DNA from: Streptomyces sp. NBC_01275
Lineage (GTDB): Bacteria; Actinomycetota; Actinomycetes; Streptomycetales; Streptomycetaceae
Assembly (NCBI RefSeq): GCF_026340655.1
Contig: NZ_JAPEOZ010000001.1
Location: 4,092,001-4,156,000 of the forward strand
Direction: 5' to 3'
DNA: 64,000 bases
A model generated the notes under the pieces. The model did not search any database, was not told the DNA's origin, and worked only from the letters and a program-made list of their open reading frames with translations. A program made the position numbers and the translations under genes. Each line of letters starts with the position of its first letter. The stretch's first letter is position 1. Shown here in pieces: positions 14,194 to 39,836 of the stretch.

Positions 14194-20581
<6,388 letters not shown>

Positions 20582-20585
<4 letters not shown>

Positions 20586-22770: not shown

Positions 22771-23599
22771 GGAAGCCCATGTCGTAGCAGCTGTAGTCGG
22801 GCAGGTTGTAGATCCGCACCCAGGCCAGGCAGCCGCGGGGGTTGCAGTTGTTGTAGAAGGAGCCGCCGCGGATCACGCCGAGCGAGATCGAGCCCGCCTT
22901 CGTCTTGATGACCCGCCCCGGCTTGTTCTCGTCGTACGGGTAGTGGTGGAAGGCGCTGGAGGTGATCTCCCAGACGTTGCCGGTGAGGTCCGCGTTGCCG
23001 TACGGGCCGGCCGCCTTCGGGTAGGCGTCGACGGGGGTGGTGTCGGCGACGTTCATGGTGTGGTTGCAGTGCTCGGCGGTGGGCTCCTCGTTGCCCCACG
23101 GGTAGGCGCGGGCGTCGGTGCCGCGCGCGGCCTTCTCCCACTCGGCCTCGGTGGGCAGCCGGGTGCCGGACCACTCGCAGTAGGCGAGGCAGTCGTAGGA
23201 GCTGACGTGGGTGACCGGGTGGTCGTCCTTGCCCTCCACGGTGGAGCCCGCACCGCGGGGGGTGCGCCAGGTGACGCCGTCGACCTCCTTCCACAGGTAG
23301 TCCTGGTCGGGGACGACGACGGCGGGGTCGCCGATCCAGACCCAGCTCTTGCCCTTCTTCTCCGCGTCGGTCACATGGCCGGTCGCCTCGACGAAGCGGC
23401 GGAAGTCGGCGACGGTGACCGGGTACCTGGCCATGCGGAACTCGGCCACGTCGACCTGGTGCTCGGGCGAGGCCGCCCGTCGCTTGCCGTCGTGCCGCAG
23501 CTCGTCGGAGCCCATGGTGAAGGGGCCGCCGGGGACGGTGACCCAGTAGTCCGCGGGGAACGTCTCGGCGGGGATCAGTTCTGCCGTCACCTCGGTCAC
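22754..23599 (-). CDS. SUMF1/EgtB/PvdO-family protein (formylglycine-generating-enzyme fold)
   Basis: A 281-residue FGE-sulfatase domain protein: VPGGPFTMGSDE near the start, VTHVSSYDCLAYCEW, LPTEAEWEKAARG, GNVWEITSS, VIRGGSFYNN, GFRVCAR at the end. Family members include the copper-dependent formylglycine-generating enzyme, EgtB-type sulfoxide synthases and PvdO of pyoverdine maturation. No sulfatase gene is in the window. The paired Cys seen near the end (NCNPRGC, SCYD) do not obviously match the copper site of true FGE. I infer an oxidative tailoring role like PvdO. The GTG start at 23,599 follows GAAGGAG and overlaps the upstream stop (GTGA); the open frame extending to 24,067 is a shadow of the DUF885 gene. 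Confidence 0.85.
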   Translation of the reverse strand: MTEVTAELIPAETFPADYWVTVPGGPFTMGSDELRHDGKRRAASPEHQVDVAEFRMARYPVTVADFRRFVEATGHVTDAEKKGKSWVWIGDPAVVVPDQDYLWKEVDGVTWRTPRGAGSTVEGKDDHPVTHVSSYDCLAYCEWSGTRLPTEAEWEKAARGTDARAYPWGNEEPTAEHCNHTMNVADTTPVDAYPKAAGPYGNADLTGNVWEITSSAFHHYPYDENKPGRVIKTKAGSISLGVIRGGSFYNNCNPRGCLAWVRIYNLPDYSCYDMGFRVCAR

Positions 23600-25221
23600 G
23601 GATTCTCCTTCGTCGTTGTGGATGCGGCCGGAACGGGCCGGCCGTCGAGGTAGTAGCGCCATACGGTGGACAGCGGAGCGCCGCCGCAGCGCAGCAGCCG
23701 GTCGTGGAAGGCCTTCAGGTCGGCGGCCGAGTCGCGGACGCCGGCCAGCTCGCGCCACCGTCGGATGTGCAGTTTGCCGAGCGTGTACATGGCTCCGGCC
23801 GGGTTGGCGACCACGGCCAGCACCTCGCGGCCGGCGCGCTCGGGCGACCACGCGCACAGCGTGGCGGCCTCGGCGGCGGCAGCGCCGAACTTCTTCCGTC
23901 CGGAGTGGACGGAGAGGAACATCAGCAGGCGGGCGGCGGCCTCCAGCGCGAAGCGCAGGGCGGCGACCTCGACGAGCGGGCGGCCCTCGGCGAGGCCGCG
24001 CTCGATCGCCAGTTCCTCGGTGTAGTGGGCCCATCCCTCGGTGGTCCCGGGGAACCACGGCACGCACCTGCGGATCACGCCGGCGTGCTCGGGAGCGGCC
24101 TCGTGGTGCAGGTAGTGGCCGGGGACGACCTCGTGCACGGCGATCATCTCGAGCATCGGCTCGTTGAGGTAGTCGCGCAGTGCGGCGGGGTCGCGCGGCT
24201 CGGGGACGTGCAGCACGTGCGGCTGCGGCACCGTCTCGAGCGGTCCGGCGTGGTCGAACACGACCGCCGCGGAGGTCGACGCGTCGCGGGCGGGCCGGAT
24301 GTCGAGACCGTACCGGCTGGTGAGGGTGACGACGTCCTGCTCGGCCCAGAACTCCCGCAGCCGCTCGATGATCCCCGACAGCGCGGTGACCACCGATCCG
24401 GCCGGGAGCTGTGCGCTCAGCAGTGCGTACGCCTCCTGCCGGCCGCGCACGCCCAGCCGTGCGGCGAGCGCGTCGAGGCGGGCGACCAGCTGCTGCACCT
24501 CGGCCTCGACCTCCGCGAGCAGCTCGTCCACCGGCGTGTCGACCCCTTCGGCCGCCTCGAGGTAGGCGGCGAGCAGGTCGGGGCCGAAGATCGCACGGAC
24601 CGGCTCGGTGGCCGCGACCTCGGCCGCGAAGCCGGTGAACGCGGCGCTCGCCGAGCCGGCCAGCTCCAGGAGAGAGCTGTCGGCCGCTTCCGGCCGCCGT
24701 GCGACGAGCTGGGCGACGGTGTTCGCGACGGACGCCGCGCGGGCTCTGGCGTTCTCGATGCCGCTGATGCGCTCGCCCGCCGGCAGAGTGCCGCCGAGCG
24801 TCTTCGCCGCGGCGCCGAGGAAGTCCGGCAGCTGCGCGAGGTGACGCGACAGCGCCGCGACGCGCTCGTCCAGCGGTGCGTACTCGCCCCGCAGGTAGAC
24901 GTGCACGTCGGCCTCGGCGAGCCAGAGGTCGGGCCCGCGGTGGGCCCGGCCGAGCTCGGCGATGCGGAACCGCTCGTCGGTGAGGACCCGCATCGCCGTG
25001 CCGAGGTCCGCTCGCACCTCCGCGTCCGCGTCCCCCGGCAGGGCGTCGAGCTGCGCGCGGACCGCGGTCAGCAGACCGTCCACATCGGACGGAGCGTCGG
25101 GCACGACGTCAGGCAGCCGGGCGTCGAATGCGTGACAGCCCGCCCGCCTGCCCACCTGCGGATATCGCTCGAAAACATAGTCGACGACAGCGGAAACGGA
25201 ATTCTGGGCAGCAGACGTCAT
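23596..25221 (-). CDS. DUF885 family putative zinc metallopeptidase
   Basis: A 541-residue DUF885 protein. The signature HEVVPGHYLHH (HExxxH) followed about 25 residues later by EGWAHYTEEL resembles the gluzincin-like zinc site of the family. No signal peptide or membrane span is seen, so it should act in the cytoplasm. The family's substrates are largely unknown. In this operon, between the MbtH-like gene and the PvdO-like gene, it could trim a peptide precursor or hydrolyse an acyl-amide; that is inference. The start ATG 25,221 has a weak ribosome binding site, and its stop overlaps the next start (GTGA). Confidence 0.85.
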   Translation of the reverse strand: MTSAAQNSVSAVVDYVFERYPQVGRRAGCHAFDARLPDVVPDAPSDVDGLLTAVRAQLDALPGDADAEVRADLGTAMRVLTDERFRIAELGRAHRGPDLWLAEADVHVYLRGEYAPLDERVAALSRHLAQLPDFLGAAAKTLGGTLPAGERISGIENARARAASVANTVAQLVARRPEAADSSLLELAGSASAAFTGFAAEVAATEPVRAIFGPDLLAAYLEAAEGVDTPVDELLAEVEAEVQQLVARLDALAARLGVRGRQEAYALLSAQLPAGSVVTALSGIIERLREFWAEQDVVTLTSRYGLDIRPARDASTSAAVVFDHAGPLETVPQPHVLHVPEPRDPAALRDYLNEPMLEMIAVHEVVPGHYLHHEAAPEHAGVIRRCVPWFPGTTEGWAHYTEELAIERGLAEGRPLVEVAALRFALEAAARLLMFLSVHSGRKKFGAAAAEAATLCAWSPERAGREVLAVVANPAGAMYTLGKLHIRRWRELAGVRDSAADLKAFHDRLLRCGGAPLSTVWRYYLDGRPVPAASTTTKENP

Positions 25222-25687: not shown

Positions 25688-26207
25688 CAGATTAGAGGTC
25701 CCATACAGTCGTTCCCGATTGGGGAGAGGCGGGATGCACTATCGGCAGGAGTCACTGCTGGATATTCAACTGCCACCCATCCAGGCGGTCCGGAAATTCA
25801 TTCTCAGCAGTTCGACGGGATTCAAGCTAGGTCAGGCCGATTACGAGTGTCAAGAAACCGTGATTGCCTGCACACCCAATGAACGGAACAGCAACGTTCG
25901 TTGTCGGCGGGCGAGACGGGTGGTCAACGCAGGCCGCACGCGGTCGCCCTTGACCATAGGGCCGGACCTGGGAATCCTCGGACCCCGATAGAGGCGCTTC
26001 GTAAGCCGAAGGAACAAAAGGCCGGAGCGATCGCAGCCGTTGAACTCACTGCGCCCGCACAATCCGGAAGATTACGAGCCGGGCAGAAACCGTCCAAGCG
26101 GCGCCGCCCGAACATGAGCTGTTCTCGAAGTGGTCACCGCACACTGTTCGACCGACGCCGCGCTCCACTTGGACAGCAGCCGACGCGGAAGACGATAGGA
26201 GATGTCA
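25688..26207. promoter_or_regulatory. Divergent intergenic region of the cluster
   Basis: About 520 bases between the leftward MbtH-like operon and the rightward cupin/JmjC gene, lower in GC than its flanks. It must carry promoters for both halves of the cluster. Near 25,828-25,840 CTAGGTCAGGC resembles half of an actinobacterial iron box (DmdR/IdeR type), but the other half does not match, so I do not call iron control. Short open frames here look random. Confidence 0.5.
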
Positions 26208-27107
26208 GTGACAACGACGGCCCAAACGGTCCCTGTGGACGTGCGGACCGAGCTGAGCCCCGAGGAGTTCCGCGCCGTGTACCTGGGGCGCCGGCCGGTG
26301 GTGATGCGCGGCGCGGCCGCCCACCTGCCCGCGGTGTCCACCTGGTCGGCCGCCCATCTCGCCAAGGCGGCCCCCGACCAGCAGGTACGCGTCAAGGTCG
26401 GCACCGTCTCCGCGGGTCGCACCGCTGTCGTCCGCCTCGCCGACTACGCCCGCGAACTCGCGGAGTGGGAAGCCGAGGTCGCCAGGGGAGACGACCCCGG
26501 CGATCCGCCCGGCTATCTGCACGACGTGCCGCTGCTGTCGATGATCCCGGAGCTGCGCCGCGACCTCGAGCCGTTCCCCGCCGACTACTTCCCGCCGTTC
26601 TTCCGCGACCAGTGGTGGAAGTTTACGCAGTTCTTCGTCGGACCCTCGCGTGCGGTGACCCCGCTGCACTTCGACACCCTGCTCACCCACAACCTGTTCT
26701 TCCAGGTGCACGGGTCCAAGCAGTTCGTCATGGTGGCCGACGCCGAACGGGACAGGTGCTACACCTACAACTGGCGGTGGGCCGCGGTCGACCCGGACGC
26801 CCCGGACCTCGACCGGTACCCGCTCTTCCGTGACGCGACGGTCCTGACGGCCGACGTCCAGGCGGGCGACGTCTTCTACATGCCGCCCGGGACGCTGCAC
26901 AAAGTCACCTCCCCCGGCGCGTCGATCTCGTTCAACATCGACTGGCACGACCGCGCCAGCGCGCTGCGCGGCGTCGCCGCGGTACGCGAGGGCATGCCGC
27001 TGAAGAACCTCCGCTACAACCTGCTGTTCGCGCTCGGGGTCGTCGCCGGCCTGCCGCGTGGCCTGCTGCTGCCGGGACTGCGCTCGTACTACTCCTACAT
27101 CTCTTAG
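26208..27107 (+). CDS. Cupin-like/JmjC-type Fe(II), 2-oxoglutarate-dependent oxygenase
   Basis: A 299-residue cupin_8/JmjC-fold protein. The metal-binding facial triad is visible as HFD in TPLHFDTLLTHN and a later His in PPGTLHKV; GSKQFVMV is the usual strand after the first motif. Such enzymes hydroxylate amino acids, often on carrier proteins, or protein side chains. In this cluster it could beta-hydroxylate one of the residues; the substrate cannot be read from sequence. Start choice: AGGAG at 26,197-26,201 directly abuts the ATG at 26,202 but sits 6 bases before GTG 26,208, so I use the GTG. First gene of the rightward operon. Confidence 0.82.
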   Translation: MTTTAQTVPVDVRTELSPEEFRAVYLGRRPVVMRGAAAHLPAVSTWSAAHLAKAAPDQQVRVKVGTVSAGRTAVVRLADYARELAEWEAEVARGDDPGDPPGYLHDVPLLSMIPELRRDLEPFPADYFPPFFRDQWWKFTQFFVGPSRAVTPLHFDTLLTHNLFFQVHGSKQFVMVADAERDRCYTYNWRWAAVDPDAPDLDRYPLFRDATVLTADVQAGDVFYMPPGTLHKVTSPGASISFNIDWHDRASALRGVAAVREGMPLKNLRYNLLFALGVVAGLPRGLLLPGLRSYYSYIS

Positions 27108-27157
27108 TGAAGGCCGGCCTACGGTCGCGCTACTCCTCTCATAGGGAAGGGGCTTCC

Positions 27158-28408
27158 ATGAGCATCTTCGACCAGCACGAGTCGAACGTGCGGTCCTACA
27201 GCAGGCGCTGGCCGGTCGTCTTCTCCCGGGCGACCGGCAGCCACCTGCACTCCGAGGAAGGCCGAAGCTGGCTCGACTTCTTCGCCGGGGCCGGCTCACT
27301 GAACTACGGGCACAACAACCCGGTGCTCAAGCGGGCGCTGCTGGACTACGTCGCCAACGACGGCGTCACCCACGCGCTCGACATGTTCACCACCGCGCGG
27401 CACGACCTGCTCGAGACGCTCGTCGAGGTGGTGCTGCAGCCGCGGGGCCTGGACCACAAGGTGATCTTTCCGGGGCCGGGCGGCGCCAACGCCGTCGAGG
27501 CGGCCCTGAAGCTGGCCCGCACGGTCACCGGCCGCAGCGAGGTCGTGCACTTCACCAACTCCTTCCACGGCGCGACGCTCGGCGCGCTCGCGGTCACGGG
27601 CAATCCCTCGCACCGCCGCTCCGCCGGCGTGCCGCTCACCGGCGCGACCCCGGTGCCGTTCGACGGCGAGGACGGGCTCACCCACCCGGAGCACCTGGCG
27701 CGGCTCCTGGCCAACCCCGGCAGCGGGCTGGACCGGCCGGCCGCGGTGATCGTGGAGACCGTGCAGGCCGAGGGCGGGGTGAACGTGGCGAGCGCCGAGT
27801 GGCTGCGCGCGCTCGCGGATCTGTGCCGGCAGCACGAGATCCTGCTGATCGTCGACGACATCCAGGCGGGCTGCGGACGGACCGGCCCCTTCTTCAGCTT
27901 CGAGGACGCGGGCATCGTCCCGGACCTCGTCTGCCTGTCGAAGTCGATCGGCGGATACGGGCTGCCGCTCGCGCTCACCCTGGTCCGGCCGGAGCTGGAC
28001 GTGTGGCAGCCGGGCGCCCACAGCGGCACCTTCCGCGGCGTGAACCCGGCGTTCGTCACCGCGACGGCGGCGCTGCACACCTACTGGCGGGACGACGCGC
28101 TGGAGAAGTCGACGCGCTCCAGGGGCGAGTGGATCGGGAACGCGCTCCAGGACATCGTCAACACCCACCCCGGCGCGGGCCTGTCCGCCCGCGGCCGCGG
28201 CCTCATCCACGGTCTGGTGGTCGGCGCGGGGCTGGCCGACGCGGTCGCCGATCAGGCGTTCGCGCGGGGCCTGCTGGTGGAGACCGCCGGTCCGCGGGAC
28301 GAGGTCGTCAAGCTGCTGCCGCCGCTGACGGCCTCCGACGCGGAGCTGGCCGAGGGGCTCGCGATCCTCGAGACGTCCGTGCACGCGGTGATCGAACGGG
28401 CCGCATGA
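27158..28408 (+). CDS. Diaminobutyrate-type aminotransferase (EctB/PvdH-like, class III PLP)
   Basis: A 416-residue class III aminotransferase. It resembles EctB/PvdH enzymes that make L-2,4-diaminobutyrate from aspartate semialdehyde and glutamate: FFAGAGSLNYGHNNP, FPGPGGANAVEAALKLAR, NSFHGATLGALAVTG, DDIQAGCGRTG, PLP lysine in LSKSIGGYGLPLAL, SGTFRGVNPAFVTATAAL. ATG 27,158 follows GGGAAGGGG. It would supply diaminobutyrate to the two A domains with acidic pockets, in parallel with the SbnA/SbnB route to diaminopropionate. No ectA or ectC genes are present, arguing against ectoine. Another omega-amino acid aminotransferase is possible. Confidence 0.85.
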   Translation: MSIFDQHESNVRSYSRRWPVVFSRATGSHLHSEEGRSWLDFFAGAGSLNYGHNNPVLKRALLDYVANDGVTHALDMFTTARHDLLETLVEVVLQPRGLDHKVIFPGPGGANAVEAALKLARTVTGRSEVVHFTNSFHGATLGALAVTGNPSHRRSAGVPLTGATPVPFDGEDGLTHPEHLARLLANPGSGLDRPAAVIVETVQAEGGVNVASAEWLRALADLCRQHEILLIVDDIQAGCGRTGPFFSFEDAGIVPDLVCLSKSIGGYGLPLALTLVRPELDVWQPGAHSGTFRGVNPAFVTATAALHTYWRDDALEKSTRSRGEWIGNALQDIVNTHPGAGLSARGRGLIHGLVVGAGLADAVADQAFARGLLVETAGPRDEVVKLLPPLTASDAELAEGLAILETSVHAVIERAA

Positions 28409-28551
28409 GCCCGAACACGACCGTCCATCCGTCAGTCCGTCCGTCCGTCAGTCCGCTAGTGAACCGAGACAGGAATCTGCCGATGACCTCGCAGAACATC
28501 GACCAAGTGCGCGGCCTGCCGCACACCCCGACGCTACGGGGAGCACGCTGA
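28405..28551 (+). CDS. Small coupled ORF between aminotransferase and exporter
   Basis: A 48-codon frame whose ATG overlaps the aminotransferase stop (ATGA) and whose TGA overlaps the exporter start (TGATG). Its first half is low-complexity and reflects a CGTCCGTCAGTC-type DNA repeat at 28,420-28,455; an internal ATG at 28,483 would give a 22-residue peptide (MTSQNIDQVRGLPHTPT...). No family is recognised. Coupling on both sides suggests it is at least translated through, but it may be only a ribosome relay. Confidence 0.35.
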   Translation: MSPNTTVHPSVRPSVSPLVNRDRNLPMTSQNIDQVRGLPHTPTLRGAR

Positions 28552-29849
28552 TGGCGGAGGGAAAGGGCAGCGGCAAGCGGCGCGCCCTGGCTGAAGCGCT
28601 GGCGCCGCTCTCGATACGGGAGTTCCGCATCCTGTGGACCGGGCAGGCCGTGTCGGCCGCCGGCGGCGGGATGACCAAGGTTGCGCTGATCTTCGCCGTG
28701 CTGGCGGTGGACGGCACGGTCACCGACATCGGGCTCGTGATGACCGCGCAGGTCCTGACGCAGATCCTCTTCACACTGGCCGGCGGGGTGTGGGCGGACC
28801 GGCTGCGCCGCCAGTTCCTGATGCTGGCATCCGACCTGATCCGCGCGGCCGCACAACTGGTGCTGGCCGTTCTCCTCCTGTCCGGCGACGCCCAGGTGTG
28901 GCATCTGGCCGCCGGCGCCTCGATCTTCGGCGCCGCCCAGGCGTTCTTCGGCCCGGCGTCCAGAGGCCTGATGGCGGAGATCACGCCACCGGAACAGCTC
29001 CAGCGCGCCAACGCGCTGATGACCTTCAGCACCAGCGCCTCCACGGTGCTGAGCCCGGTGCTGGCCGGCCTGGTGATCGTGTGGTGGGGGCCGGGGCTGG
29101 TGCTGGCCGTGGACGCTGTCACGTTCGTCGTGAGCGCCGTGTCGCTGGCGATGCTGCGGCTGCCCCCGCGCACCATCCCCGCGCCCGAGTCGTTCTGGCG
29201 CGACCTGGGCACCGGCTGGCGCGAGTTCGCCGTACGACGGTGGCTGTGGCTCAACCTGATGGTGCACATGCTGCAGAACCTCGCGGTCGCGGCGTACTAC
29301 GTGCTCGGCCCGGCGATCGCGGACGAGTCGCTCGGCGGACCGTCCGCCTGGGGCGTCATCGTCGCGGGCTTCGCGGCCGGCGCCATCGCGGGCGGGTTCA
29401 TCGCGCTGAAGCTGGAGCCGGGCAGGCCGCTGATCGTCGGCAACCTCGCGCTGGCCCTGACCGCGCTGCCGCTGCTGGCCTTCGCGGTGCCGTTGCCCCT
29501 GTGGGCCGTGGTGGGCGCGGCGTTCCTCAGCGGCGCGGCGACCCTGTTCCTCGACGCCCTGTGGCAGGCGTCGATGCAGCAGCTGATCCCCGCGGAGGTG
29601 ATGTCGCGGGTCGAGTCCTACGACTGGCTGATCTCCACGATCGCCGCACCCCTCGGCCTCGCCCTGGTGGGCCCGCTGGCCTCCCAGACCGGGCAGGCCC
29701 AGACCCTGCTGATCGCCGCCGCGATGATCGTCATCCCGTGCAGTCTCACCCCGCTGGTGCCCGGCATCCGCGCGGTCCGGCGCGCTCCCGACGGCCGCAT
29801 CACCGGCCCGACCCCCACCCCGACCCCCCAGCAGCCCGCCCACGTGTGA
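28551..29849 (+). CDS. MFS exporter (EntS-like)
   Basis: A 432-residue major facilitator superfamily protein of the EntS/siderophore-exporter type: about 12 hydrophobic spans, the loop GGVWADRLRRQ after TM2 (cytoplasmic A motif) and a second half beginning near residue 215. It probably exports the finished or still-acylated product across the membrane, delivering it to the extracytoplasmic acylase. Start ATG 28,551 follows GGGGAG and overlaps the small ORF. The C-terminal tail is threonine/proline-rich (GPTPTPTPQQP). Confidence 0.9.
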   Translation: MAEGKGSGKRRALAEALAPLSIREFRILWTGQAVSAAGGGMTKVALIFAVLAVDGTVTDIGLVMTAQVLTQILFTLAGGVWADRLRRQFLMLASDLIRAAAQLVLAVLLLSGDAQVWHLAAGASIFGAAQAFFGPASRGLMAEITPPEQLQRANALMTFSTSASTVLSPVLAGLVIVWWGPGLVLAVDAVTFVVSAVSLAMLRLPPRTIPAPESFWRDLGTGWREFAVRRWLWLNLMVHMLQNLAVAAYYVLGPAIADESLGGPSAWGVIVAGFAAGAIAGGFIALKLEPGRPLIVGNLALALTALPLLAFAVPLPLWAVVGAAFLSGAATLFLDALWQASMQQLIPAEVMSRVESYDWLISTIAAPLGLALVGPLASQTGQAQTLLIAAAMIVIPCSLTPLVPGIRAVRRAPDGRITGPTPTPTPQQPAHV

Positions 29850-29867
29850 GACGACGAACGAGGAGCC

Positions 29868-30626
29868 ATGACCGACGGACAGGGTGAGTGGATCCGCCGT
29901 TACCGGGCCGCGCCCGAGGCGGCGGTACAGGTGGTGTGCCTCCCGCACGCCGGCGGGTCCGCGAGCTACTTCCGGCCGATGGCGAGGGCGCTGTTCCCCA
30001 CGGTCGAGGTGCTGGCGGTGCAGTATCCCGGAAGGATGGACCGCGTCAACGAACCGTGCGTCGACGACTTCGCGGAGCTGACCGAGCGCACGCTCGCCGC
30101 GGTGCGTCGCGAACTGGACAGGCCGGTGGCGCTGTTCGGGCACAGCATGGGCGCGCTGCTGGCGTTCGAGGTGGCCAAGCGTCTGGAGGCCGACGGGGTC
30201 GAGCCGCTGGCGCTGTTCGCGTCGGGGGCGCGGCCGCCGGGCCGGCCGCTCCCCCGGCACGCCCACACGGCGACCGACGAGGAGCTGATCGCGGAGCTCG
30301 TCGCACTGGACGGCACCGACGAACGGCTGCTGGACAACGAGGACATGCGCGTGCTGGTGCTGTCCGCGCTGCGCGCGGACTACCGGATGCTGGACTCCTA
30401 CCGATGCGACGGCCCCACGGTGGCGTGCCCGGTCGTGTCCCTGACCGGCGACGACGACCCCGTCGTGTCGATCGACGACGCGGCCGCGTGGGCGAGCCAC
30501 ACCGTCGGCCGGTCCGACCTGCACGTCTTTCCCGGCGGGCACTTCTACCTCGACGACCACTGGGCCGACGTGGGCGAGGTGCTCACGACCCGGCTCGGGA
30601 CGCACCTCCCGACGCGGACGGGCTGA
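29868..30626 (+). CDS. Type II thioesterase (editing)
   Basis: A 252-residue type II thioesterase with a complete catalytic set: GHSMG (Ser93), GDDDP for the Asp, and GGHFYL for the His. It should remove wrong acyl groups from the carrier proteins. It follows the exporter by 18 bases with GAGGAG before ATG 29,868 and is the last gene of this rightward run; a strong hairpin overlaps its stop codon. It is the ordinary counterpart of the Cys-nucleophile thioesterase at 1,298. Confidence 0.93.
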   Translation: MTDGQGEWIRRYRAAPEAAVQVVCLPHAGGSASYFRPMARALFPTVEVLAVQYPGRMDRVNEPCVDDFAELTERTLAAVRRELDRPVALFGHSMGALLAFEVAKRLEADGVEPLALFASGARPPGRPLPRHAHTATDEELIAELVALDGTDERLLDNEDMRVLVLSALRADYRMLDSYRCDGPTVACPVVSLTGDDDPVVSIDDAAAWASHTVGRSDLHVFPGGHFYLDDHWADVGEVLTTRLGTHLPTRTG

Positions 30627-30652
30627 CGACACCTGTCGTCAGCCCGTCCGCG
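30613..30652. terminator. Perfect hairpin between convergent genes
   Basis: An 18-bp perfect inverted repeat (arms 30,613-30,630 and 30,635-30,652) with a 4-base loop. It includes the thioesterase stop codon and lies between the convergent thioesterase and KAS III-like genes. There is no long T-run, as is common for Streptomyces terminators; it can work in both directions. Confidence 0.85.
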
Positions 30653-30704
30653 CGTCTGTCGTCGATATGCCGGCCGGCCGACCTCGGCGGTCGGCCGGCC
30701 CACC

Positions 30705-31703
30705 TCAGCGGTCGACCTGCCACGCGGGCTTCGCGAGGATCTCCAGGACGGCGCAGCCGAAGGCGAACCCGGTGGAGTCGCCCAGCATGACGACCCGGTC
30801 CCCTACCTCCGCGGCCCCCGTCTCCAGCAGGTGGGTGAGCCCGACGAACGAGTCGCCGCCACTGGTGAGATGGCCGACCGTGCGTCCCAGGTCCCACGTC
30901 GTGCACGCGTCGTCGATCTCGAACTCGGCGCAGAAGTCGCGGTCGACCAGGAACCGCCCGGTGTACGGCAGGAGCCAGTGCCTGATGTCGCCGGCCCCGA
31001 CCCCGGCGTCGGCGAGCACCGCCCGCACGCAGTCGCGTTTGGCTTCGGTCATCGTCCGCATCATCGACATGACGCGCTTGCGCTGCGCCTGGCGGTACTC
31101 CTTGCGGTCGTCGAACTGAGCGGGGTCGAGTGCGGTCAGTCCGCTGAACCTGCCGTCACCGACGATCTCGGTGGCGAGGAGCCGCGCGACGCCCTCCCCT
31201 CGGTCCAGCACCATGGCGGTGGCGCCGTCGGCGGGCACGCCGCCCTGGTCGTCGTGGTAGCGGTCGCCCTCGCGCGCGTACTTGTCCGCCGAGGTCAGCA
31301 CGGCCGCACTGCCCGCGGAGACGTACATCGCGCCGAGCTCCAGCGACGCGATCGCGCCGTTGCAGCCCTGCCGCAGCCCGAGAGCCCGAGCCCGGCCGTC
31401 GTGGGCCATGCCCTGGACGTAGGAGGCCGGCTCGGTGACGCCCGCCGGGCCCTGCTCGTCGACGTAGGCGTGGACGAACACCCCGATGTCGGCCGGGGCG
31501 ACGGCGGACCGGGCGATCGCGACCCGCGCCGCGTCGACGGCCATGTCGGCGGCGCAGCCGGAGCCGGCGACCGCGATCGACTCGTAACCGTGCGCTTCAC
31601 GGATGGCCGGGTCGTACCGGCCGGCCGCCACCGGGGCCTCCACCGGCTCCCGGTCCCCCAGCGCCACTGCACAGGACCGGACGTACACATCGCCCCACTG
31701 CAC
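30705..31703 (-). CDS. KAS III-like acyltransferase (ketoacyl-ACP synthase III family, altered triad)
   Basis: A 332-residue thiolase-fold protein related to FabH. The acyl-accepting Cys114 is in LGLRQGCNGAIASLELG. The other two FabH residues are changed: the HQAN region reads PYTGR (His to Tyr) and the GNTS region reads GHLTSGGD (Asn to His). This pattern resembles KAS III-like acyltransferases such as CerJ/ChlB3, which move an acyl group to O or N rather than make C-C bonds. It could therefore acylate the peptide or load a carrier. GTG 31,703 is chosen because GGGAGG lies 7 bases before it; the longer frame from 31,787 has no such site. It is divergent from the ornithine oxygenase gene. Confidence 0.82.
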   Translation of the reverse strand: MQWGDVYVRSCAVALGDREPVEAPVAAGRYDPAIREAHGYESIAVAGSGCAADMAVDAARVAIARSAVAPADIGVFVHAYVDEQGPAGVTEPASYVQGMAHDGRARALGLRQGCNGAIASLELGAMYVSAGSAAVLTSADKYAREGDRYHDDQGGVPADGATAMVLDRGEGVARLLATEIVGDGRFSGLTALDPAQFDDRKEYRQAQRKRVMSMMRTMTEAKRDCVRAVLADAGVGAGDIRHWLLPYTGRFLVDRDFCAEFEIDDACTTWDLGRTVGHLTSGGDSFVGLTHLLETGAAEVGDRVVMLGDSTGFAFGCAVLEILAKPAWQVDR

Positions 31704-32015
31704 GAAGCAACCTCCCGACGTAGTAACGCTGCTGAGCGTGAACGAGTCCGACCGTAACGATGTCCGCTCAGCTCCGGCAACGCTCATGCCCGCGGGCCGG
31801 CCGTGCGGCCGAAGACGGATCGACGCGCCTGGTCACAGCGGTGCCGGCCGGCTTGTCGCCCTCGTCCTTCGGGTGTTCACGCTCGTCCTGCGTACCTTCA
31901 CTGAGCGGCGACGCCGGGGATACGATCCCGCGACGAAACCGGGCTGGACGGGACAGAATCGATCACACTCCGTCCCGTTGGCGTCCGAAGCACTGGGCCG
32001 GAGAGGAGCACCACC
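31704..32015. promoter_or_regulatory. Divergent promoter region
   Basis: A 312-base gap between the KAS III-like gene (leftward) and the ornithine oxygenase operon (rightward). It should carry both promoters. I see no operator-like palindrome I would defend and no gene; the open frames crossing it are shadows. Confidence 0.55.
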
Positions 32016-33293
32016 GTGACAGCCGCCGCGCTGCCGAACGTACCCACCGTGGACATCGCGGGGGTCGGGTTCGGGCCCGCCAACCTCGCCCTGGCGATCG
32101 CCCTCCAGGAGTCCGACGAACCGATCACCATGGCCTTCCACGAGCGGCAGGCGAGCTTCGGCTGGCACACCGGCATGCTGATCGAGGGCGCCACCATGCA
32201 GGTCTCCTTCCTCAAAGACCTCGCGACGATGCGCAACCCCGGCAGCCGCTACACGTTCCTCGCCTATCTGCACGCCCACGGCAGGATGCCGGCGTTCATC
32301 AACAGCAAGATGCTGTACCCGTACCGGATCGAGTTCCACGACTACCTCGGCTGGTCCGCGGCGCAGTTCGACACGCACGTCGCCTACGACTCCACGGTCG
32401 TGGGCGTCCGCCCTGTCCAGGGCACGGAGGGTCACGTCGACCTCCTCGAGATCACCACGCAGGGCGCGGACGGCAGCCGGCACGTCCAGCGGGCACGCAA
32501 CGTCGTGCTCGGCACGGGGACGGCGCCCAACCTGCCGCCGGACGTCACCCCTTCGGCGCGGATCCGGCACAGCTCGCAGCTGCTCGCCGGCGACCTCGCC
32601 ACACCGCGCCACGGGCGGTACCTGGTCGTGGGGGCCGGGCAGAGCGCCGCCGAGTGCGCCGACTACCTCCACCGCACCCACGGCGACGCGGCGGTGCACA
32701 CCGTCCACTCGCGCTACGGCTACAGCGTCGCCGACGACAGCCCCTTCGCCAACGGCATCTTCGACCCGGCTGCCGTCGACGACTTCTACCAGGCGCCGGA
32801 ACAGACCAAGGACGCGCTGCTCGCGTACCACGGCAACACCAACTACGCGGTGGTCGACCTGGACCTGAGCCAGGAGCTGTACCGGCGGGTCTACCTCGAG
32901 GAGGTACAGGGCCGCCCGCGGCTGCACGTCCACCGCGTCTCACGGGTGCGTTCCTGCACCGAGACCGCCGACGGCGTCGAGGTGGAGGTGGAGTCGCTGG
33001 TCACCGGTGAGGTGACGCGGCTCGTGGTGGACGGCGTCGTCTACGCCACCGGCTACCGGCCCGTCGACCACCTGCCGCTGCTCGGCGACCTGGCCGACGA
33101 GTGCAAGAAGGACGAGAGCGGCGGCCTGTACGTGGACCGCGACTACCGGGTCCGCACCTCGGACGCGCTGCGCTGCGGCATCTATCTGCACGGCGCCGGC
33201 ACCGAGGGCAGCCACGGCCTGAGCGCGGGGCTGTTGTCCAACACCGCCGTCCGCGCGGGCGAGATCGCGACATCGATACTCCGTCAGACCTGA
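32016..33293 (+). CDS. ktzI: L-ornithine N5-monooxygenase (KtzI/PvdA-like)
   Basis: A 425-residue flavin-dependent N-hydroxylating monooxygenase. It has an FAD site (VGFGPANLALAIAL), an NADPH site (VVGAGQSAAECADYL), the family motif YATGYRP and a C-terminal GLSAGLLSNTAVRAGEI. It makes N5-hydroxy-L-ornithine, used either for hydroxamate siderophores or as the substrate of piperazate synthase. The next gene, 15 bases away, starts with a KtzT-like domain, so the product here is most likely piperazate. GTG 32,016 follows GAGAGGAG. A lysine N6-hydroxylase cannot be excluded from sequence alone. Confidence 0.9.
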   Translation: MTAAALPNVPTVDIAGVGFGPANLALAIALQESDEPITMAFHERQASFGWHTGMLIEGATMQVSFLKDLATMRNPGSRYTFLAYLHAHGRMPAFINSKMLYPYRIEFHDYLGWSAAQFDTHVAYDSTVVGVRPVQGTEGHVDLLEITTQGADGSRHVQRARNVVLGTGTAPNLPPDVTPSARIRHSSQLLAGDLATPRHGRYLVVGAGQSAAECADYLHRTHGDAAVHTVHSRYGYSVADDSPFANGIFDPAAVDDFYQAPEQTKDALLAYHGNTNYAVVDLDLSQELYRRVYLEEVQGRPRLHVHRVSRVRSCTETADGVEVEVESLVTGEVTRLVVDGVVYATGYRPVDHLPLLGDLADECKKDESGGLYVDRDYRVRTSDALRCGIYLHGAGTEGSHGLSAGLLSNTAVRAGEIATSILRQT

Positions 33294-33307: not shown

Positions 33308-35491
33308 GTGTTCGTTCCACCGATCTACCGGGTCACGGATCCCGGTCAGCTTCACCAGATCATCCGGCAACACCCGATGGCCATGCTGGTGGGCAACGGG
33401 CCCACCACCCCGTACACGACCCTCCTGCCGATCATCCACCTCCCCGGCGCCGAGGAGCCCGAGGCGTTCGCCGGGTTCTCGCTCCTGGGCCACCTCAACC
33501 GGGCCAACCCGCACTGGCGGGCGCTGGCCGGCGGCGCCCCCGCGAGCCTCGTCTTCACCGGCCCGAACAGCTATGTCACCCCGGCCCTGTACGACACTCC
33601 GGTGGCCGCGCCCACCTGGAACTTCGCCACCGCCGAGCTGACCGGTGACGTGGTGCCGCTGTCCGAGGGCGAGGAGACCCTGGAGGTCGTCCGGCGCACG
33701 GCCGAGCTGTTCGAGCGGCGGTTCGGCCAGGGCTGGGAGGCCGGCGGGTCGGTCGACTACTTCCGCTCCATCGTGAGCGGGGTCGGAGCCTTCCGGTTCG
33801 ACGTGACGTCCGGGCAGGCGATGTTCAAGCTCAGCCAGGAGAAGAATCCCGCGATCCGCGACCGGGTCGCCAAGAGCATGCTCGACGACGGCGACGGAAC
33901 CCGTCGCGCGCTGGGAGTCCACATGTGCCGAATGGGACGGACGGAGACGACGTCACGACCCACCCTGTGGGGCGGGTCCGCGGAGCCGGAGTGTCTGCTG
34001 GACGGGCTGGCCCGCACCGTGGCCGAGCGGCCCGACGAGCTCGCCCTGGTCGACGGGGCGACCCGGCTGACCTACGCGGAGCTGTGGGCCTGGGTCGCCG
34101 AACTCGCCGCGACCCTCACCCGCCACGGGATCGAACCCGGCAGCCGGGTCGCGGTGACCGGCGGACGCAGCGCGCGCACCGTCGCGGCCCTGCTCGCCGC
34201 CGTCGCGGTCGGCGCCACCTATGTGCCGCTGGACGCGTCGTATCCGGTGAACCGGCTCACGTTCATGCTGCACGACAGCGGCGCGAGCCTCCTGTTGCAC
34301 GACGGCCCCCGGCCGACGATCGCCGACGAGGTGGCGACCCTCGCCATCGAGGACCCCTCCGGGGCCGGGGCCGGCGACTTCCGGCCGGTCGCCTGCCGCC
34401 CGGACCTCCCGGTGTACGTCATCTACACCTCCGGATCGACCGGTCTGCCCAAGGGCGTGACGATCCAGCACAGCTGCCTCGACAACATGGCGGCCTGGCA
34501 GCGCACCGACTCCGTCCGGCCCGACCTGCGGACCGCGCAGTTCGCGCCCCTGAACTTCGACGTGTGCTTCCAGGAGATCCTGGGCACCCTGTGCGGCGGC
34601 GGCACCCTCGTCATCGTGCCCGAGACGCTGCGGCGCGACCCGTTCGCCTTCCTGACCTGGCTGGCCGACCACCGCATCGAGCGCCTGTTCCTGCCCTACG
34701 TCGCCCTCCACATGCTGGCGGTGGCGGCATCGGCGCAGGACGGCGACCTGGGCCTGTCCCTGCGCGAGGTGAACACGGCGGGCGAGCAGCTGCTGTGCAC
34801 GCCGCCGATCCGGGCCCTGTTCGAGGCCCTGCCCCAGGCCCGGCTCGGCAACCACTACGGACAGAGCGAGTCCGCGATGGTCAGCTCGTACGTACTGCCC
34901 GCCGACCCCGCCGCCTGGCCGTTGCTGCCGCCCATCGGCCGGCCGCTGCCGGGCTGTGAGCTGCTGGTGAACCCCACCGACCCGGAGGATCCGACCACCG
35001 GCGAACTGCTCGTCGCCGGCGCCCCGGTCTCCCTGGGCTACCTCGGCCGGCCGGAGCTGAACGCCGAACGCTTCATCACCGTCGACCCAACCCCGCAGGG
35101 ACACACCAAGGCCTTCCGCACCGGCGACCTGGTGCGCGTCGAGGACGACCTCGTGTACTTCCTCAGTCGGCTGGACCATGACGTCAAGATCCGCGGCATC
35201 CGGGTCAACCTGCTGGAGATCGAGGCCTGCCTGATGCAGCAGCCCGGCGTCGCCACCGCGGTCTGCGTGGCCCTGGAGCCGGTCCCCGGCTCGCGTCAGC
35301 TCCGCGCCGCCGTCACCCTGCACCCGGACGTGACCGAGCCCGGCGACCTTCGCGCGGCGCTGGCCGAGCTGCTGCCCGAGGCGTCCGTGCCCGCGTCGGT
35401 GACCATCCTGCCCGGGCTGCCGCGGACCCCGAGCGGCAAGATCGACCGCGACTCGGTCGCCGAGTCCCTCGCGACCAAGGGCGACCGATGA
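33308..35491 (+). CDS. Piperazate synthase-like domain fused to a free-standing adenylation domain
   Basis: A 727-residue two-domain protein. Residues 1-213 belong to the PaiB/FMN-binding split-barrel family (GHLNRANPHW, MFKLSQEKNP, IRDRVAKSML), whose member KtzT is the heme enzyme that closes N5-hydroxyornithine to piperazate. Residues 225-727 are a complete A domain (YVIYTSGSTGLPKG, NFDVCFQEILGTL, NHYGQSE, TGDLVRVE, SGKIDRD). Its pocket reads D-V-Q-F-N-A-H-M-V, close to the proline code D-V-Q-L-I-A-H-V-V, as expected for a cyclic imino acid. So one polypeptide would make and activate piperazate. There is no PCP in the protein; the next gene is one. GTG 33,308 follows GGGAGAG, and the stop overlaps the PCP start (ATGA). 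Annotation pipelines may call the first half a transcriptional regulator. Confidence 0.88.
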   Translation: MFVPPIYRVTDPGQLHQIIRQHPMAMLVGNGPTTPYTTLLPIIHLPGAEEPEAFAGFSLLGHLNRANPHWRALAGGAPASLVFTGPNSYVTPALYDTPVAAPTWNFATAELTGDVVPLSEGEETLEVVRRTAELFERRFGQGWEAGGSVDYFRSIVSGVGAFRFDVTSGQAMFKLSQEKNPAIRDRVAKSMLDDGDGTRRALGVHMCRMGRTETTSRPTLWGGSAEPECLLDGLARTVAERPDELALVDGATRLTYAELWAWVAELAATLTRHGIEPGSRVAVTGGRSARTVAALLAAVAVGATYVPLDASYPVNRLTFMLHDSGASLLLHDGPRPTIADEVATLAIEDPSGAGAGDFRPVACRPDLPVYVIYTSGSTGLPKGVTIQHSCLDNMAAWQRTDSVRPDLRTAQFAPLNFDVCFQEILGTLCGGGTLVIVPETLRRDPFAFLTWLADHRIERLFLPYVALHMLAVAASAQDGDLGLSLREVNTAGEQLLCTPPIRALFEALPQARLGNHYGQSESAMVSSYVLPADPAAWPLLPPIGRPLPGCELLVNPTDPEDPTTGELLVAGAPVSLGYLGRPELNAERFITVDPTPQGHTKAFRTGDLVRVEDDLVYFLSRLDHDVKIRGIRVNLLEIEACLMQQPGVATAVCVALEPVPGSRQLRAAVTLHPDVTEPGDLRAALAELLPEASVPASVTILPGLPRTPSGKIDRDSVAESLATKGDR

Positions 35492-35841
35492 CGACCGAAC
35501 CGACCACGACCGAACCGACGACAGTCGAGACCACGACGGACGAGACCACGACGGGCGAGCCGAGTACAGGCGAGCCGACCAGGGGCGAGCCGACTACGGG
35601 CGAGGCCGCCGGGCCGTACCGGCGGCGGATCGCCGAGATCTGGTCGGCCGCGCTCGGCGTCCCGGTCGCCACGGCCGACCACCACTTCTTCGAAGACGGC
35701 GGCGACTCCTTCCAGGCCGCGCTCGCGACCGCGACGGTGCGCCGCGAGTGGGGGCTGGAGATCACCGTTCAACTCCTCATCGATCACCCGGTGCTGGGGG
35801 ACTTCGCGGATCGGGTGGCACGGTTCGTGGACGAGAGATGA
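35488..35841 (+). CDS. Stand-alone peptidyl carrier protein with Thr/Glu-rich leader
   Basis: A 117-residue protein. Residues 45-117 are a PCP with the phosphopantetheine serine in FFEDGGDSFQAAL. Residues 1-40 are a degenerate T-x-E-P-T-T repeat, probably a flexible linker that arose from DNA repeats. The ATG overlaps the stop of the piperazate-synthase/A fusion, so it is the natural acceptor of the aminoacyl-AMP made there. It may carry piperazate to one of the A-less modules or to the final C domain. Confidence 0.9.
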   Translation: MTTEPTTTEPTTVETTTDETTTGEPSTGEPTRGEPTTGEAAGPYRRRIAEIWSAALGVPVATADHHFFEDGGDSFQAALATATVRREWGLEITVQLLIDHPVLGDFADRVARFVDER

Positions 35842-36002
35842 CAGAGCGCGTCGCTCATGCCGGGGCCGCCCGGACCCGGCGCGGGTCCGGCCGCCGCGGA
35901 GACGGTGGCGGTGGCAGTGGCAGTGGCAGTGGCTATGACGGTGGCGGTGGCGGAATCGACCGGTGCGTGAGGGAGACGAGGGAGACGAGGGAGACACAGA
36001 AC
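35838..36002 (+). repeat. Hexamer and nonamer repeats between PCP and thioesterase-like gene
   Basis: From about 35,903 to 35,953 runs a GGTGGC/AGTGGC hexamer array; at 35,969-35,995 are three perfect copies of GAGGGAGAC. An ATG at 35,838 overlapping the PCP stop would read through as a Gly/Ser-rich then RET-repeated leader of 55 residues, but the ATG at 36,003 has a better ribosome binding site, so I treat this stretch as a leader region. Confidence 0.7.
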
Positions 36003-36704
36003 ATGTTGACGATCGTGGACTACCCGGGGCGCCGGCCGGAGGCCCCGGTCACCGCGCTGGGGCTCGACGGCATGGTCACGCTGCTCACCGACCCGCTGCC
36101 GGTCGAGGGCACCGGCCCCGCGTACGCGGCCCGACTCGACGACGGCCCCGATCCGATCCTGGCGTACTGCGCCGCGTCGGCGATCGCGGTCCACCTCGCC
36201 CGCCGGTCCGGGCGCCCGCGCCCCCTGGTCCTCTTCGATCCGATGCCGACCACCGACGACGACGTCGCCCGCGCCTACGCCGACGCGATCGCCCAGGTGC
36301 CGGGGGGCGGCGAGCCGCCGGTACCGATCGAGGAGCTGCCCGCCGAACCGGAGCCGTTCCTGAAGGCCGTCCGCGAGGACCTGACACTGCGCGCGGAGAC
36401 GGCCCTGCGGGCGCAGGGGCTGGGCGACGACGTGATCGCCGAGCCGGTCGCGCACTTCGCCCGGCAGCACCTGTCCTATCTCGCCTACCTGCTGGCGGCG
36501 CGGGGCGCGCTGCCCAAGGAGCCCATCGGGCCGATGCTCCAGGTTCTCTCCCGCGACCACCCCGACCACCGGGACTGGCTCCCCGAGGGGGAGCTGACCA
36601 CCCTACGCATCGACAGCGACCGGGCCGGGCTCACGGCCCACGAGTCGACCAGGACCGGCGTCGTGTCGTTCCTGTCCGCGACAACGAGGAGGCAACAAGC
36701 ATGA
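36003..36704 (+). CDS. Small thioesterase-like alpha/beta hydrolase, Cys at nucleophile position
   Basis: A 233-residue protein with no family I can name firmly. The stretch PDPILAYCAASAIAVHLARR followed by PLVLFDPMP has the layout of an NRPS thioesterase nucleophile elbow plus next strand (G-x-S-x-G replaced by A-Y-C-A-A, with Cys56). DPMPTTDDDVARAY then resembles the lid entry. A possible catalytic His is in LTAHEST near residue 218. It may be a diverged thioesterase for release or transfer from the flanking carrier proteins, or a catalytically dead partner. ATG 36,003 has GGGAGAC before it; ATG 35,838 would add a low-complexity leader. Its stop overlaps the next PCP start (ATGA). Confidence 0.6.
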   Translation: MLTIVDYPGRRPEAPVTALGLDGMVTLLTDPLPVEGTGPAYAARLDDGPDPILAYCAASAIAVHLARRSGRPRPLVLFDPMPTTDDDVARAYADAIAQVPGGGEPPVPIEELPAEPEPFLKAVREDLTLRAETALRAQGLGDDVIAEPVAHFARQHLSYLAYLLAARGALPKEPIGPMLQVLSRDHPDHRDWLPEGELTTLRIDSDRAGLTAHESTRTGVVSFLSATTRRQQA

Positions 36705-36946
36705 CGGGCGAAGAACTGCGGACCGCCGTTCGGACGATCTGGCGGGAGGTGCTCGGGGCCGACGTGGACGACGACACCGACTTCTTCGACGCGGGCGGCA
36801 CCTCGTTCGCCGCGCTGCGCATCGTCGCGACGCTCAACGACCGGCACGGGACCCCGACGCCGGTGAAGGTGCTGTTCGACAGCCCCCGGTTCGCCGACTT
36901 CGTCGCGGTCCTGGACAAGGAGCCCGAGCTCAGCCCGCACAGCTGA
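36701..36946 (+). CDS. Stand-alone peptidyl/acyl carrier protein
   Basis: An 81-residue carrier protein with the phosphopantetheine serine in FFDAGGTSFAALR and the usual four-helix pattern. It is translationally coupled to the thioesterase-like gene (ATGA), with GAGGAGG upstream. With the PCP at 35,488 this gives two free carriers against two A-less modules. Which acyl group each holds is unknown; no A domain directly adjoins this one except a degenerate relic on the opposite strand at about 37,015-37,170. Confidence 0.93.
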   Translation: MTGEELRTAVRTIWREVLGADVDDDTDFFDAGGTSFAALRIVATLNDRHGTPTPVKVLFDSPRFADFVAVLDKEPELSPHS

Positions 36947-37014
36947 CGGGGCCGGCCGCAAGCGGGCCGCCCGGCAGGCGGCCGACCCGGCAGGCGGCCC
37001 ACCCGTCGCACGGC

Positions 37015-37170
37015 TCCGTGAACCACGTACGCGGTCAGCACCTCGCACACCCGCCGCCGCACCAGTTCGTCCAGGTGCGGCGGCTCACCCGTGCCCGTGG
37101 GGACCACGGACCTCGATCTGCCGGTCGATCCGACCGAGGAACTCCGGCGTCCCGCCCTCGAACCGGCGGC
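37015..37170 (-). pseudogene. Relic of an adenylation-domain C-terminus
   Basis: Read leftward, one frame gives FEGGTPEFLGRIDRQIEVRG, a clear match to the A8 motif of A domains (FLGRxDxQIKVRG). After a frame change, GEPPHLDELVRRRVCEVLTAYVV resembles the following helix and strand. There is no intact start, no upstream A domain and no PCP, so this is a decayed fragment. The rest of 36,947-37,607 holds no gene I can support. Confidence 0.6.
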
Positions 37171-37607
37171 ATGCATCGCACGCCGACCGCCTGCGGTCGC
37201 AACGGCCGGTCACGACGGCCGGTCCCAACAGCCGGTCGCGACATACAGCGTGTGCGCATCGCCGCGCCTGCTCGGCCGGCTCCCGGCAGTGTCGTCGCAC
37301 CGCTCTGCCGACCGCCGGTCCACCGCATCCTCGCCGACGCCGACGGCGCGGGCCGTCACCTGACCGCTCGGGCCGCGCCACCCGGCCGCTCGGGCCGCCG
37401 CCACCCGGCCGGTCGTCGACCCGTCCGGCGGCAGCGGGACGTCCTGCGCGCACCGCCGCCCGGAAGGGTGTGCCGTGCCCGGACACGCCCACGTCGACGT
37501 TCTGGTGCACGTCGTATCGCCTGGTCAACGTCCTGTCTGAGCTGGACATTCGGAGTGCCGCCTGTTGCGATGAGGACTTCCGGGCCATCGAGATTCGGGG
37601 GGCGTCC

Positions 37608-39008: not shown

Positions 39009-39836
39009 GTGAACAGCGAACTCCTTGTCTCCGACGCGAGCCGGTTCCGGGTCGACTACGAGATCAACCCCTACATGGACACCGCGGTCCAGCCCGACCC
39101 CGTGGCGGCGCTGGCCGAGCACCGGGCGATCGTGGCCGCGCACCTCGCGGCCGGCCGCACGGTCGAGTACCTGCCGTCCGCACCGGAGTGCCCGGACATG
39201 GTGTTCACCGCCAACGCCGCCCTGGTCCGCGGCGACCGCGCCGTCCTCGGCTCCCCGCCGCCCCAGCGGAAGGCCGAGATCCCCTACTTCCAGGAGTGGC
39301 TGGCCGACCGGGGGTTCGAGGTCATCGAGGCGCCCTACGCGTTCAGCGGCCAGGGCGACGCACTGGCCTGCGGCGACCTGCTGCTGACGGGGTACGGCCA
39401 GCGCACCGACGAGCGGATGCTCGGGGTGCTCGCCCGCGAGCTGCACTACGAGGTGGTGCCGCTGCGCACGGTGAGCCCCCGCTGGTACGACCTCGACCTG
39501 GCCGTCGGCGTCATCTCCCCGGACGCGCTGGCGTACTGCCCGCAGGCCCTCGACACGCTCAGTCTGCGGACCCTGCGCGGGCTCGGGGTCGAGCTGATCG
39601 AGGTGTCCGTCGAGGAGGCGGCGCGGTTCGCGCTGAACCTCGTCAGCGACGGAACCACCGTGACCATGGCCCAGGACGCGCCGCGCCTGGCCGCCACCCT
39701 GCGCGACCGCGGCCTGAAGGTGGTCGAACTCCACACGACCGAACTCGCGAAGGGCGGCGGCGGCATCCGCTGCACCGCCCTGACGCTGGACAACCCGCCG
39801 CCGAAACAGCGCTCCGACGACAGACCGCACCGGTAG
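39009..39836 (+). CDS. Amidinotransferase/DDAH-family protein (arginine or dimethylarginine hydrolase-like)
   Basis: A 275-residue pentein-fold protein. Family features: CPDMVFTANAALV, FSGQGDAL and the C-terminal cysteine loop GGGGIRCTALTLD. Active enzymes hydrolyse a guanidino group, for example methylarginine or arginine to citrulline or ornithine. At the place of the usual catalytic His (FYHLD) this protein reads WYDLD, so activity may be altered or lost. GTG 39,009 follows AGGGAAGG. If it feeds ornithine it could support piperazate synthesis, but it sits beyond the P450 and next to a sugar locus, so the link is weak. Confidence 0.75.
   Translation: MNSELLVSDASRFRVDYEINPYMDTAVQPDPVAALAEHRAIVAAHLAAGRTVEYLPSAPECPDMVFTANAALVRGDRAVLGSPPPQRKAEIPYFQEWLADRGFEVIEAPYAFSGQGDALACGDLLLTGYGQRTDERMLGVLARELHYEVVPLRTVSPRWYDLDLAVGVISPDALAYCPQALDTLSLRTLRGLGVELIEVSVEEAARFALNLVSDGTTVTMAQDAPRLAATLRDRGLKVVELHTTELAKGGGGIRCTALTLDNPPPKQRSDDRPHR

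Follow-up and report, generated by a model that had tools for sequence, protein, structure and literature searches.

Can a single polypeptide both build an unusual amino acid and activate it for peptide assembly? The question is raised by a gene of Streptomyces sp. NBC_01275, found at 33308-35491 on the forward strand of a 64,000-nucleotide stretch of contig NZ_JAPEOZ010000001.1 (positions 4,092,001 to 4,156,000; hereafter, the window), whose product joins a domain resembling piperazate synthase (PZS) to an adenylation (A) domain. The fusion is very probably bifunctional, with predicted synthesis of L-piperazate from N5-hydroxyornithine followed by adenylation for a coupled carrier protein and for modules of a nonribosomal peptide synthetase (NRPS) that lack A domains of their own. 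It is a genuine union of two known enzyme types, undescribed as far as was searched, for which the comparative evidence is unusually clean; no mention of a PZS-A fusion was found in the literature searched, a body of work from which subscription papers were mostly absent.

One gene, two probable enzymes

The open reading frame (ORF) at 33308-35491 starts with GTG, has GGGAGAG just 5' of this codon, and continues without an internal stop to encode 727 residues, within which Pfam recognizes FMN_bind_2 (residues 2-167, 2e-32), AMP-binding (residues 235-579, 4e-66), and AMP-binding_C (residues 637-711), and no condensation domain. Matches in the PDB to SbPZS, PipS, and KtzT, together with a residue map, place the PZS domain at residues 1-205 (33308-33922), and the Pfam matches and pocket code place the A domain at residues 235-711 (34010-35440), leaving an interdomain stretch of residues 206-234 (33923-34009). 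An AlphaFold2 model built on a 45-row alignment contains two well-folded parts and a low-confidence link at residues 212-215 (predicted local distance difference test score (pLDDT) 86.8; predicted template modeling score (pTM) 0.68). The joining of PZS-like and A domains in one gene, which had been proposed from the letters of the window, is thus confirmed by the intact ORF and by fused homologues elsewhere; the gap to the N-oxygenase ORF upstream, which ends at 33293, is 14 bases rather than the 15 first stated. The fusion protein is the sole match to PF04299 in the 10.4-Mb genome.

A search with the fusion protein (P0001) returned 985 homologues that passed the E-value threshold, of which 120 were listed, giving 121 rows with P0001 itself. 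At least 14 of these 120 listed matches are fused: the window's own protein (P0002), P0003-P0010 (77-91% identical), and P0016-P0020 (54-55%). The 13 fused proteins besides the window's own, which bear out the suggestion that further PaiB-A fusions be sought, measure 721-791 residues and occur in Streptomyces and in Saccharothrix, Umezawaea, and Nonomuraea. Single fused ORFs were also read directly in the DNA of S. atratus (L002) and S. albiflavescens (L003), so the fusion is no assembly accident, and the long extra insert between the domains of P0007 (791 residues) suggests that link length is of little consequence. When 394 genomes of the class were searched with P0001, the window's own was the only one found.

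At nine other loci (L005-L008, L072-L075, and L077), the N-oxygenase, PZS, and A domain are encoded by adjacent separate genes in the same order. The PZS and A genes occupy different frames in L072-L075 and L077, and the A start overlaps the PZS end in L006-L008; in L005, the PZS gene ends in TAG and a GTG follows six bases on in the same frame. The fusion therefore joins operon neighbors that are often already coupled. Streptomyces and Saccharothrix-type fusions are placed apart in both trees, that of the A domain with 63 rows and that of PZS with 75; a single origin is nonetheless possible despite this two-origin topology, as holding the fused rows together with their nearest unfused relatives was not rejected by the approximately unbiased test (p-AU 0.314 for the A tree and 0.406 for the PZS tree).

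The N-terminal half as a probable piperazate synthase

When solved chains were searched by sequence, the N-terminal half was nearest to SbPZS (9qlk, 3.4e-67), PipS (3e-56), KtzT (1e-53), and LnzB (6e-43), ahead of the dehydratase NohD (2e-38) and PaiB (2e-16). The active-site residues of SbPZS, along with the roles of its heme-ligand His and catalytic Thr, Tyr, and Lys, were taken from the literature (PMC13274692, which, like the other papers cited here, was available in part). All 13 positions checked are PZS-type in the fusion protein (Thr38, His62, Asn64, Asn67, Tyr95, Ala101, Pro102, Thr103, Tyr151, Ile155, Lys174, Glu178, and Lys179), among them the heme ligand His62, encoded at 33491-33493, and the catalytic Thr103, Tyr151, and Lys174. 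The proposed comparison with the heme-binding residues of KtzT holds insofar as His62 is present, but this His also occurs in 30 of 30 comparison PF04299 rows and so does not separate PZS from PaiB; other positions do. In SbPZS numbering, Asn63, Ala100, and Glu/Asp177 are found in 118, 118, and 120 of 120 PZS-like proteins, versus Ala (29), Val (29), and Asn (25) at these positions in the 30 comparison rows, six of which (L133-L138) lie far nearer the PZS profile than the rest (L134 with several PZS states). The fusion protein has Asn, Ala, and Glu, rather than the Ala63/Val100/Asn177 combination of the PaiB side.

The same sites are PZS-type in the 14 fused proteins, save for a Gly at position 177 in P0016 and P0018; these two Saccharothrix-type fusions, departing from a position that is Glu/Asp in 120 of 120 PZS-like proteins, may differ in activity or substrate. 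In the PZS tree (14 fused proteins, 5 solved chains, 46 of the 120 PZS-like proteins, and 10 of the 30 comparison rows, with six PaiB-like rows as root), the fused domains nest within the PZSs, apart from the root rows and from the NohD branch. Similarity, residues, and tree placement alike suggest that the N-terminal half is PZS-like and not a PaiB regulator, in agreement with the KtzT likeness of the original prediction; grouping with PaiB proteins that lack the KtzT heme-ligand residues was not seen. Two stand-alone PZSs (P0122 and P0123), 71-72% identical to the fused domain, form one clade with the Streptomyces fusions in this tree and may represent that lineage in split form, with the stand-alone A protein P0015 as partner.

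Natural deletions and the adenylation pocket

The nine pocket letters of the fused A domain, DVQFNAHMV, had been read correctly, and all 15 rows with a PZS domain carry them (a count that includes the window's own protein both as P0001 and as P0002). The pattern DVQ..AH.V resembles what we take to be proline A-domain codes. The earlier description of a proline-like pocket stands for the letters as read, but the pocket is common to a free-standing A-domain family linked to PZS genes.

The strongest evidence tying the A domain to PZS comes from deletion scars and an accompanying change in this pocket. The genome G273 and S. silvae (L004) contain the same cluster without the N-oxygenase and PZS, with matched genes 67-88% identical, and no PZS match was found anywhere in the G273 genome. 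At the scar site, bounded by the KAS III and A genes, the two deletion derivatives retain 66 bases that in the window precede the N-oxygenase gene (31872-31937 on the forward strand; 55/66 identical in each, score 77, shuffled maximum 35), along with 80 bases of the PZS-coding 3' end (33850-33929, same strand; 66/80 identical with score 90 in G273 and 68/80 with score 100 in L004, shuffled maximum 34). The coding part of the N-oxygenase left no remnant that stands out there (scores 25 and 23, shuffled maximum 34). The protein P0011 has, ahead of its A domain, a match to the beginning of the N-oxygenase at residues 1-21 (score 67; 41 at most after shuffling) and one to the C-terminus of PZS at residues 22-45 (score 73; 50 at most after shuffling). 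P0011-P0014 form one group of the A tree (support of 99 by the Shimodaira-Hasegawa-like approximate likelihood ratio test, SH-aLRT) within a ten-row group that includes six fused proteins (96). Taken with the scars, this nesting indicates that these lineages descend from a fused ancestor and have since lost the N-oxygenase and PZS; a scar is observed for P0011, L004, and G273, and the tree suggests one for P0012 and P0013.

These same relatives differ at code position 330, where the fusion protein has Met (residue 524, codon 34877-34879). Val330 is present in 4 of the 121 rows (P0011-P0014), none with a PZS domain, and in 2 of 28 loci (L004 and G273); five other rows of the 121 have Thr330. 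In the deletion derivatives, QSESAMV is replaced by PSETHVV, and identity dips locally at residues 501-530. Because the relatives that lost PZS also changed the A pocket (M330 to V), the deletion and its correlated pocket change suggest that both halves serve the same molecule.

The distribution of the A family was assessed at a match cut-off of E<=1e-100 in a sample of 392 Streptomyces genomes, with genome counts drawn from the best candidates of a first look (two scored per genome for the A family and up to eight for PZS). The A family occurs in 12 of these genomes and PZS genes in 50; 11 of the 12 have both, and the twelfth is the deletion derivative G273 (hypergeometric probability 5.6e-10, rising to 2.9e-8 when the two fused genomes are set aside, with genome kinship ignored). 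The same cut-off, applied with P0016 to 390 genomes of the family of G763, gave eight matching genomes, and their loci have the N-oxygenase in 8 of 8 cases and PZS in 7 of 8. From these counts, the A family appears to track PZS genes. The idea that the A domain serves the PZS product, put forward in the original prediction, is accordingly favored in part, by the pocket change after PZS deletion, the co-occurrence, the unfused operons, and the literature.

Proposed route and competing explanations

In the proposed route, the KtzI-like ornithine/lysine N-oxygenase encoded at 32016-33293 (forward strand; PF13434, E 2.9e-102) would convert ornithine to N5-hydroxy-L-ornithine, the heme-dependent PZS domain would close the N-N bond to give L-piperazate, and the A domain would adenylate it. 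Piperazate would then be loaded onto a carrier protein, most simply the free-standing, translationally coupled peptidyl carrier protein encoded at 35488-35841 (forward strand; PF00550, E 8.8e-12), whose start codon and the stop codon of the fusion gene overlap as ATGA, and be delivered to one of two NRPS modules that comprise condensation and thiolation (C-T) domains without an A domain. Ornithine origin, N-hydroxylation, and ring closure are predicted from family knowledge, and carrier transfer and delivery to the A-less modules from gene content.

Several observations weigh against this route. The code DVQFNAHMV does not match the published in-line piperazate codes DVFSVASY and DVFTVAAY (PMC10888640), and a literal search of the literature for it gave no match. 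Among PDB chains, the N-oxygenase matches KtzI (3.3e-120) but scores higher against 9nns, labeled as the lysine oxygenase MbtG (2.6e-138). NohD shares 12 of the 13 checked residues, the thirteenth being a Leu that is found in PZSs as well, and carries the PZS states at positions 63, 100, and 177, so that residues alone do not exclude dehydratase activity, although its similarity to the N-terminal half is lower than that of the PZSs. P0015, on a 6.3-kb contig, has no PZS domain yet retains M330. Within the 12.5-20 kb fetched around nine non-fused, non-deleted Streptomyces A-family loci, neither the N-oxygenase nor PZS was found at four and no PZS was found at five; in 3 of the 11 genomes with both families (G123, G187, and G350), PZS is over 1 Mb distant or on a different contig. 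A fold search with the model listed 50 rows, all of them NRPS or other adenylating chains and none a PZS, and is therefore uninformative on the N-terminal half. Lastly, MatJ, MfnK, and LydK, the A proteins considered below, were compared by published description, as far as accessible.

The alternative that survives best, albeit an unlikely one, is that the piperazate made by the PZS domain is used elsewhere and that the substrate of the fused A domain is proline or some other amino acid. Such an arrangement would suit the presumed proline-like character of DVQ..AH.V, the different in-line piperazate codes, and those A-family members without PZS nearby. It accords poorly with the confinement of V330 to relatives without a PZS domain, three of which are scarred (P0011, L004, and G273), with the co-occurrence of the A family and PZS, and with the cluster itself, wherein none of the three in-line A domains has a published piperazate code and two modules are A-less.

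Less probable still is a diaminobutyrate route, wherein EctB-like supply, N4-hydroxylation, and ring closure by PZS would yield 5-azaproline (pyrazolidine-3-carboxylate) for activation by the A domain. The operon does contain an EctB-like diaminobutyrate aminotransferase gene (27107-28408, forward strand; TIGR02407, 597.9 bits against a cut-off of 552.2), and the pocket resembles what we assume to be a proline code; on the other hand, the DIW..TAD codes of two in-line NRPS A domains read as codes for diaminobutyrate. KtzT and its Streptomyces homologue PAI2 turn N4-hydroxy-diaminobutyrate into 5-azaproline in vitro (reviewed in PMC11705231). Nevertheless, EctB is kept (87-88%) in L004 and G273, which lost the N-oxygenase and PZS, and L005-L008 (20-22 kb), which encode an N-oxygenase, a PZS, and an A domain with DVQFNAHMV, gave no EctB match; diaminobutyrate was set aside as the PZS substrate on these grounds. 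Since it is kept where the N-oxygenase and PZS are lost, the EctB-like enzyme probably serves the NRPS, not PZS. Reading the N-terminal half as a regulator like PaiB, as a dehydratase like NohD, or as a remnant that binds heme without catalysis is hardly credible, given 13 of 13 PZS-type positions, nesting within PZSs with NohD and the PaiB-like rows elsewhere, and an N-oxygenase directly upstream, even though Pfam and database names for such proteins invoke FMN-binding negative regulators, NohD shares nearly all checked residues, and two Saccharothrix-type fusions have Gly177.

For the favored bifunctional piperazate enzyme, putative channeling by the fusion is plausible. PZSs are dimers (PMC13274692), and each dimer of the fusion would thus bring together two A domains. 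A more elaborate proposal, which is tentative and somewhat doubtful, is a channeling machine of one PZS dimer and two A domains that would pass the product from heme site to adenylation site to carrier with no free pool; it would have arisen by fusing coupled neighbors, possibly twice, and be reversible to a proline-type block through first-half deletion and pocket retuning.

Taken together, the fusion, the operon order, and the natural deletion point to the substrate of the whole free-standing A-domain family, and DVQFNAHMV could mark piperazate in genome mining beside the known in-line codes. Comparison with the deletion derivatives (in the region of QSESAMV and its counterpart PSETHVV) also singles out a few A-domain residues as apparent specificity switches, of use in engineering. 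Finally, a single chain able both to form a hydrazine amino acid and to activate it would be convenient for biocatalysis and would allow channeling to be tested against a free-piperazate route.

Neighboring genes

The surrounding NRPS cluster (4442-25221 on the reverse strand and 26202-31787) has a ligase-like start, two A domains of DIW..TAD type, and EctB-like, cupin, and KAS III-like genes. Its three NRPS ORFs (4442-20600, reverse strand), delineated by domain counts and a motif and code scan, have in-line A codes that alignment gives as DIWL-TADD (with a gap at one letter), DIWEVTADV, and DVYSLAMVH. The cluster also contains a type II thioesterase (29868-30626, forward strand; PF00975, E 5e-54), a penicillin-amidase (2136-4445), and an FGE-like gene (22754-24067). 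Ornithine-cyclodeaminase-like and pyridoxal phosphate-dependent (PALP) enzymes (73-1095 and 21769-22770, both on the reverse strand) belong to one cluster and form a pair presumably akin to that of 2,3-diaminopropionate biosynthesis. The set of amidase, FGE, and EctB resembles what we take to be pyoverdine maturation genes. A pyoverdine-like product was set aside, as the chromophore has been reported only in Pseudomonadales (PMC12971057, as far as accessible).

Downstream of the fusion gene are a second small carrier-protein-like ORF (36701-36946, forward strand), recognized by its DAGGTS motif upon sequence reading, and a cytochrome P450 gene (37470-38792, forward strand) that is kept in relatives with and without PZS (L002, L003, L004, and G273). 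In S. albiflavescens (G212), a 1039-codon frame with an A-domain-like start lies between the carrier protein and the P450; none is present in the window (35842-37470), where the 968 bases found 3' of the extra frame are 91% identical and encode a 233-residue ORF and the second carrier protein. An arginine-dihydrolase-like enzyme of the ArgZ/DDAH fold (39009-39836, forward strand; PDB match to Sll1336, E 4.7e-31) is a possible source of ornithine, accessory at most; ArgZ is described as converting arginine back into ornithine (PMC12930504). Its gene belongs to the clusters of the window and of S. albiflavescens, lies near PZS in 4 of 18 other PZS loci (L006, L011, L016, and L020), and is absent from the G273 deletion cluster and the fused S. 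atratus locus (one distant copy occurs in the S. atratus genome); it was dropped as a PZS partner owing to this scarcity and its absence from a fused locus. A second, distant N-oxygenase (38%) is encoded 4.5 kb before the window (G000:C1:4086256-4087524, in L060) and was also matched near the cluster in G212 and in G273, the latter without PZS.

Comparison with known systems

PaiB/FMN_bind_2 regulators share PF04299 and the heme His with the fusion protein and differ by Ala63, Val100, and Asn177 in most comparison rows. PltF-type proline enzymes likewise pair a free A protein with a free carrier, and the A domain matches PltF (6o6e, 1.4e-46) and, in the fold search, 7thq; identity in the fold search is 28-29%, however, and no acyl-CoA-dehydrogenase-type enzyme was found among the window ORFs run through Pfam. 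KtzT, PipS, SbPZS, and LnzB are closer parallels, with the same family, heme His, SbPZS active-site residues, and operon N-oxygenase, but solved PZS chains span 218-229 residues, whereas PZS here is the N-terminus of a 727-residue protein. Didomain enzymes of N-oxygenase and PZS are also known (Hu et al., cited in PMC11705231); they too unite PZS with a neighbor in its route, with the upstream N-hydroxylation fused there and the downstream activation fused here.

As for the A domain, MatJ of matlystatin biosynthesis, predicted to activate piperazate, is 59% identical to MfnK, the marformycin piperazate A protein (PMC5719088), and LydK of lydiamycin biosynthesis, a standalone A domain, shares its code with MatJ (PMC12130866). 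The accessible descriptions of MfnK, MatJ, and LydK mention no PZS domain, unlike the fusion; MatJ and LydK are, as here, A proteins in clusters with KtzI and KtzT homologues. In the lyd-type locus of S. aureoverticillatus (L012/L054), the PZS (P0163) is called Lyd13 in one source, and the A domain has a nine-letter code, DVQFNAHMV, identical to that of the fusion.

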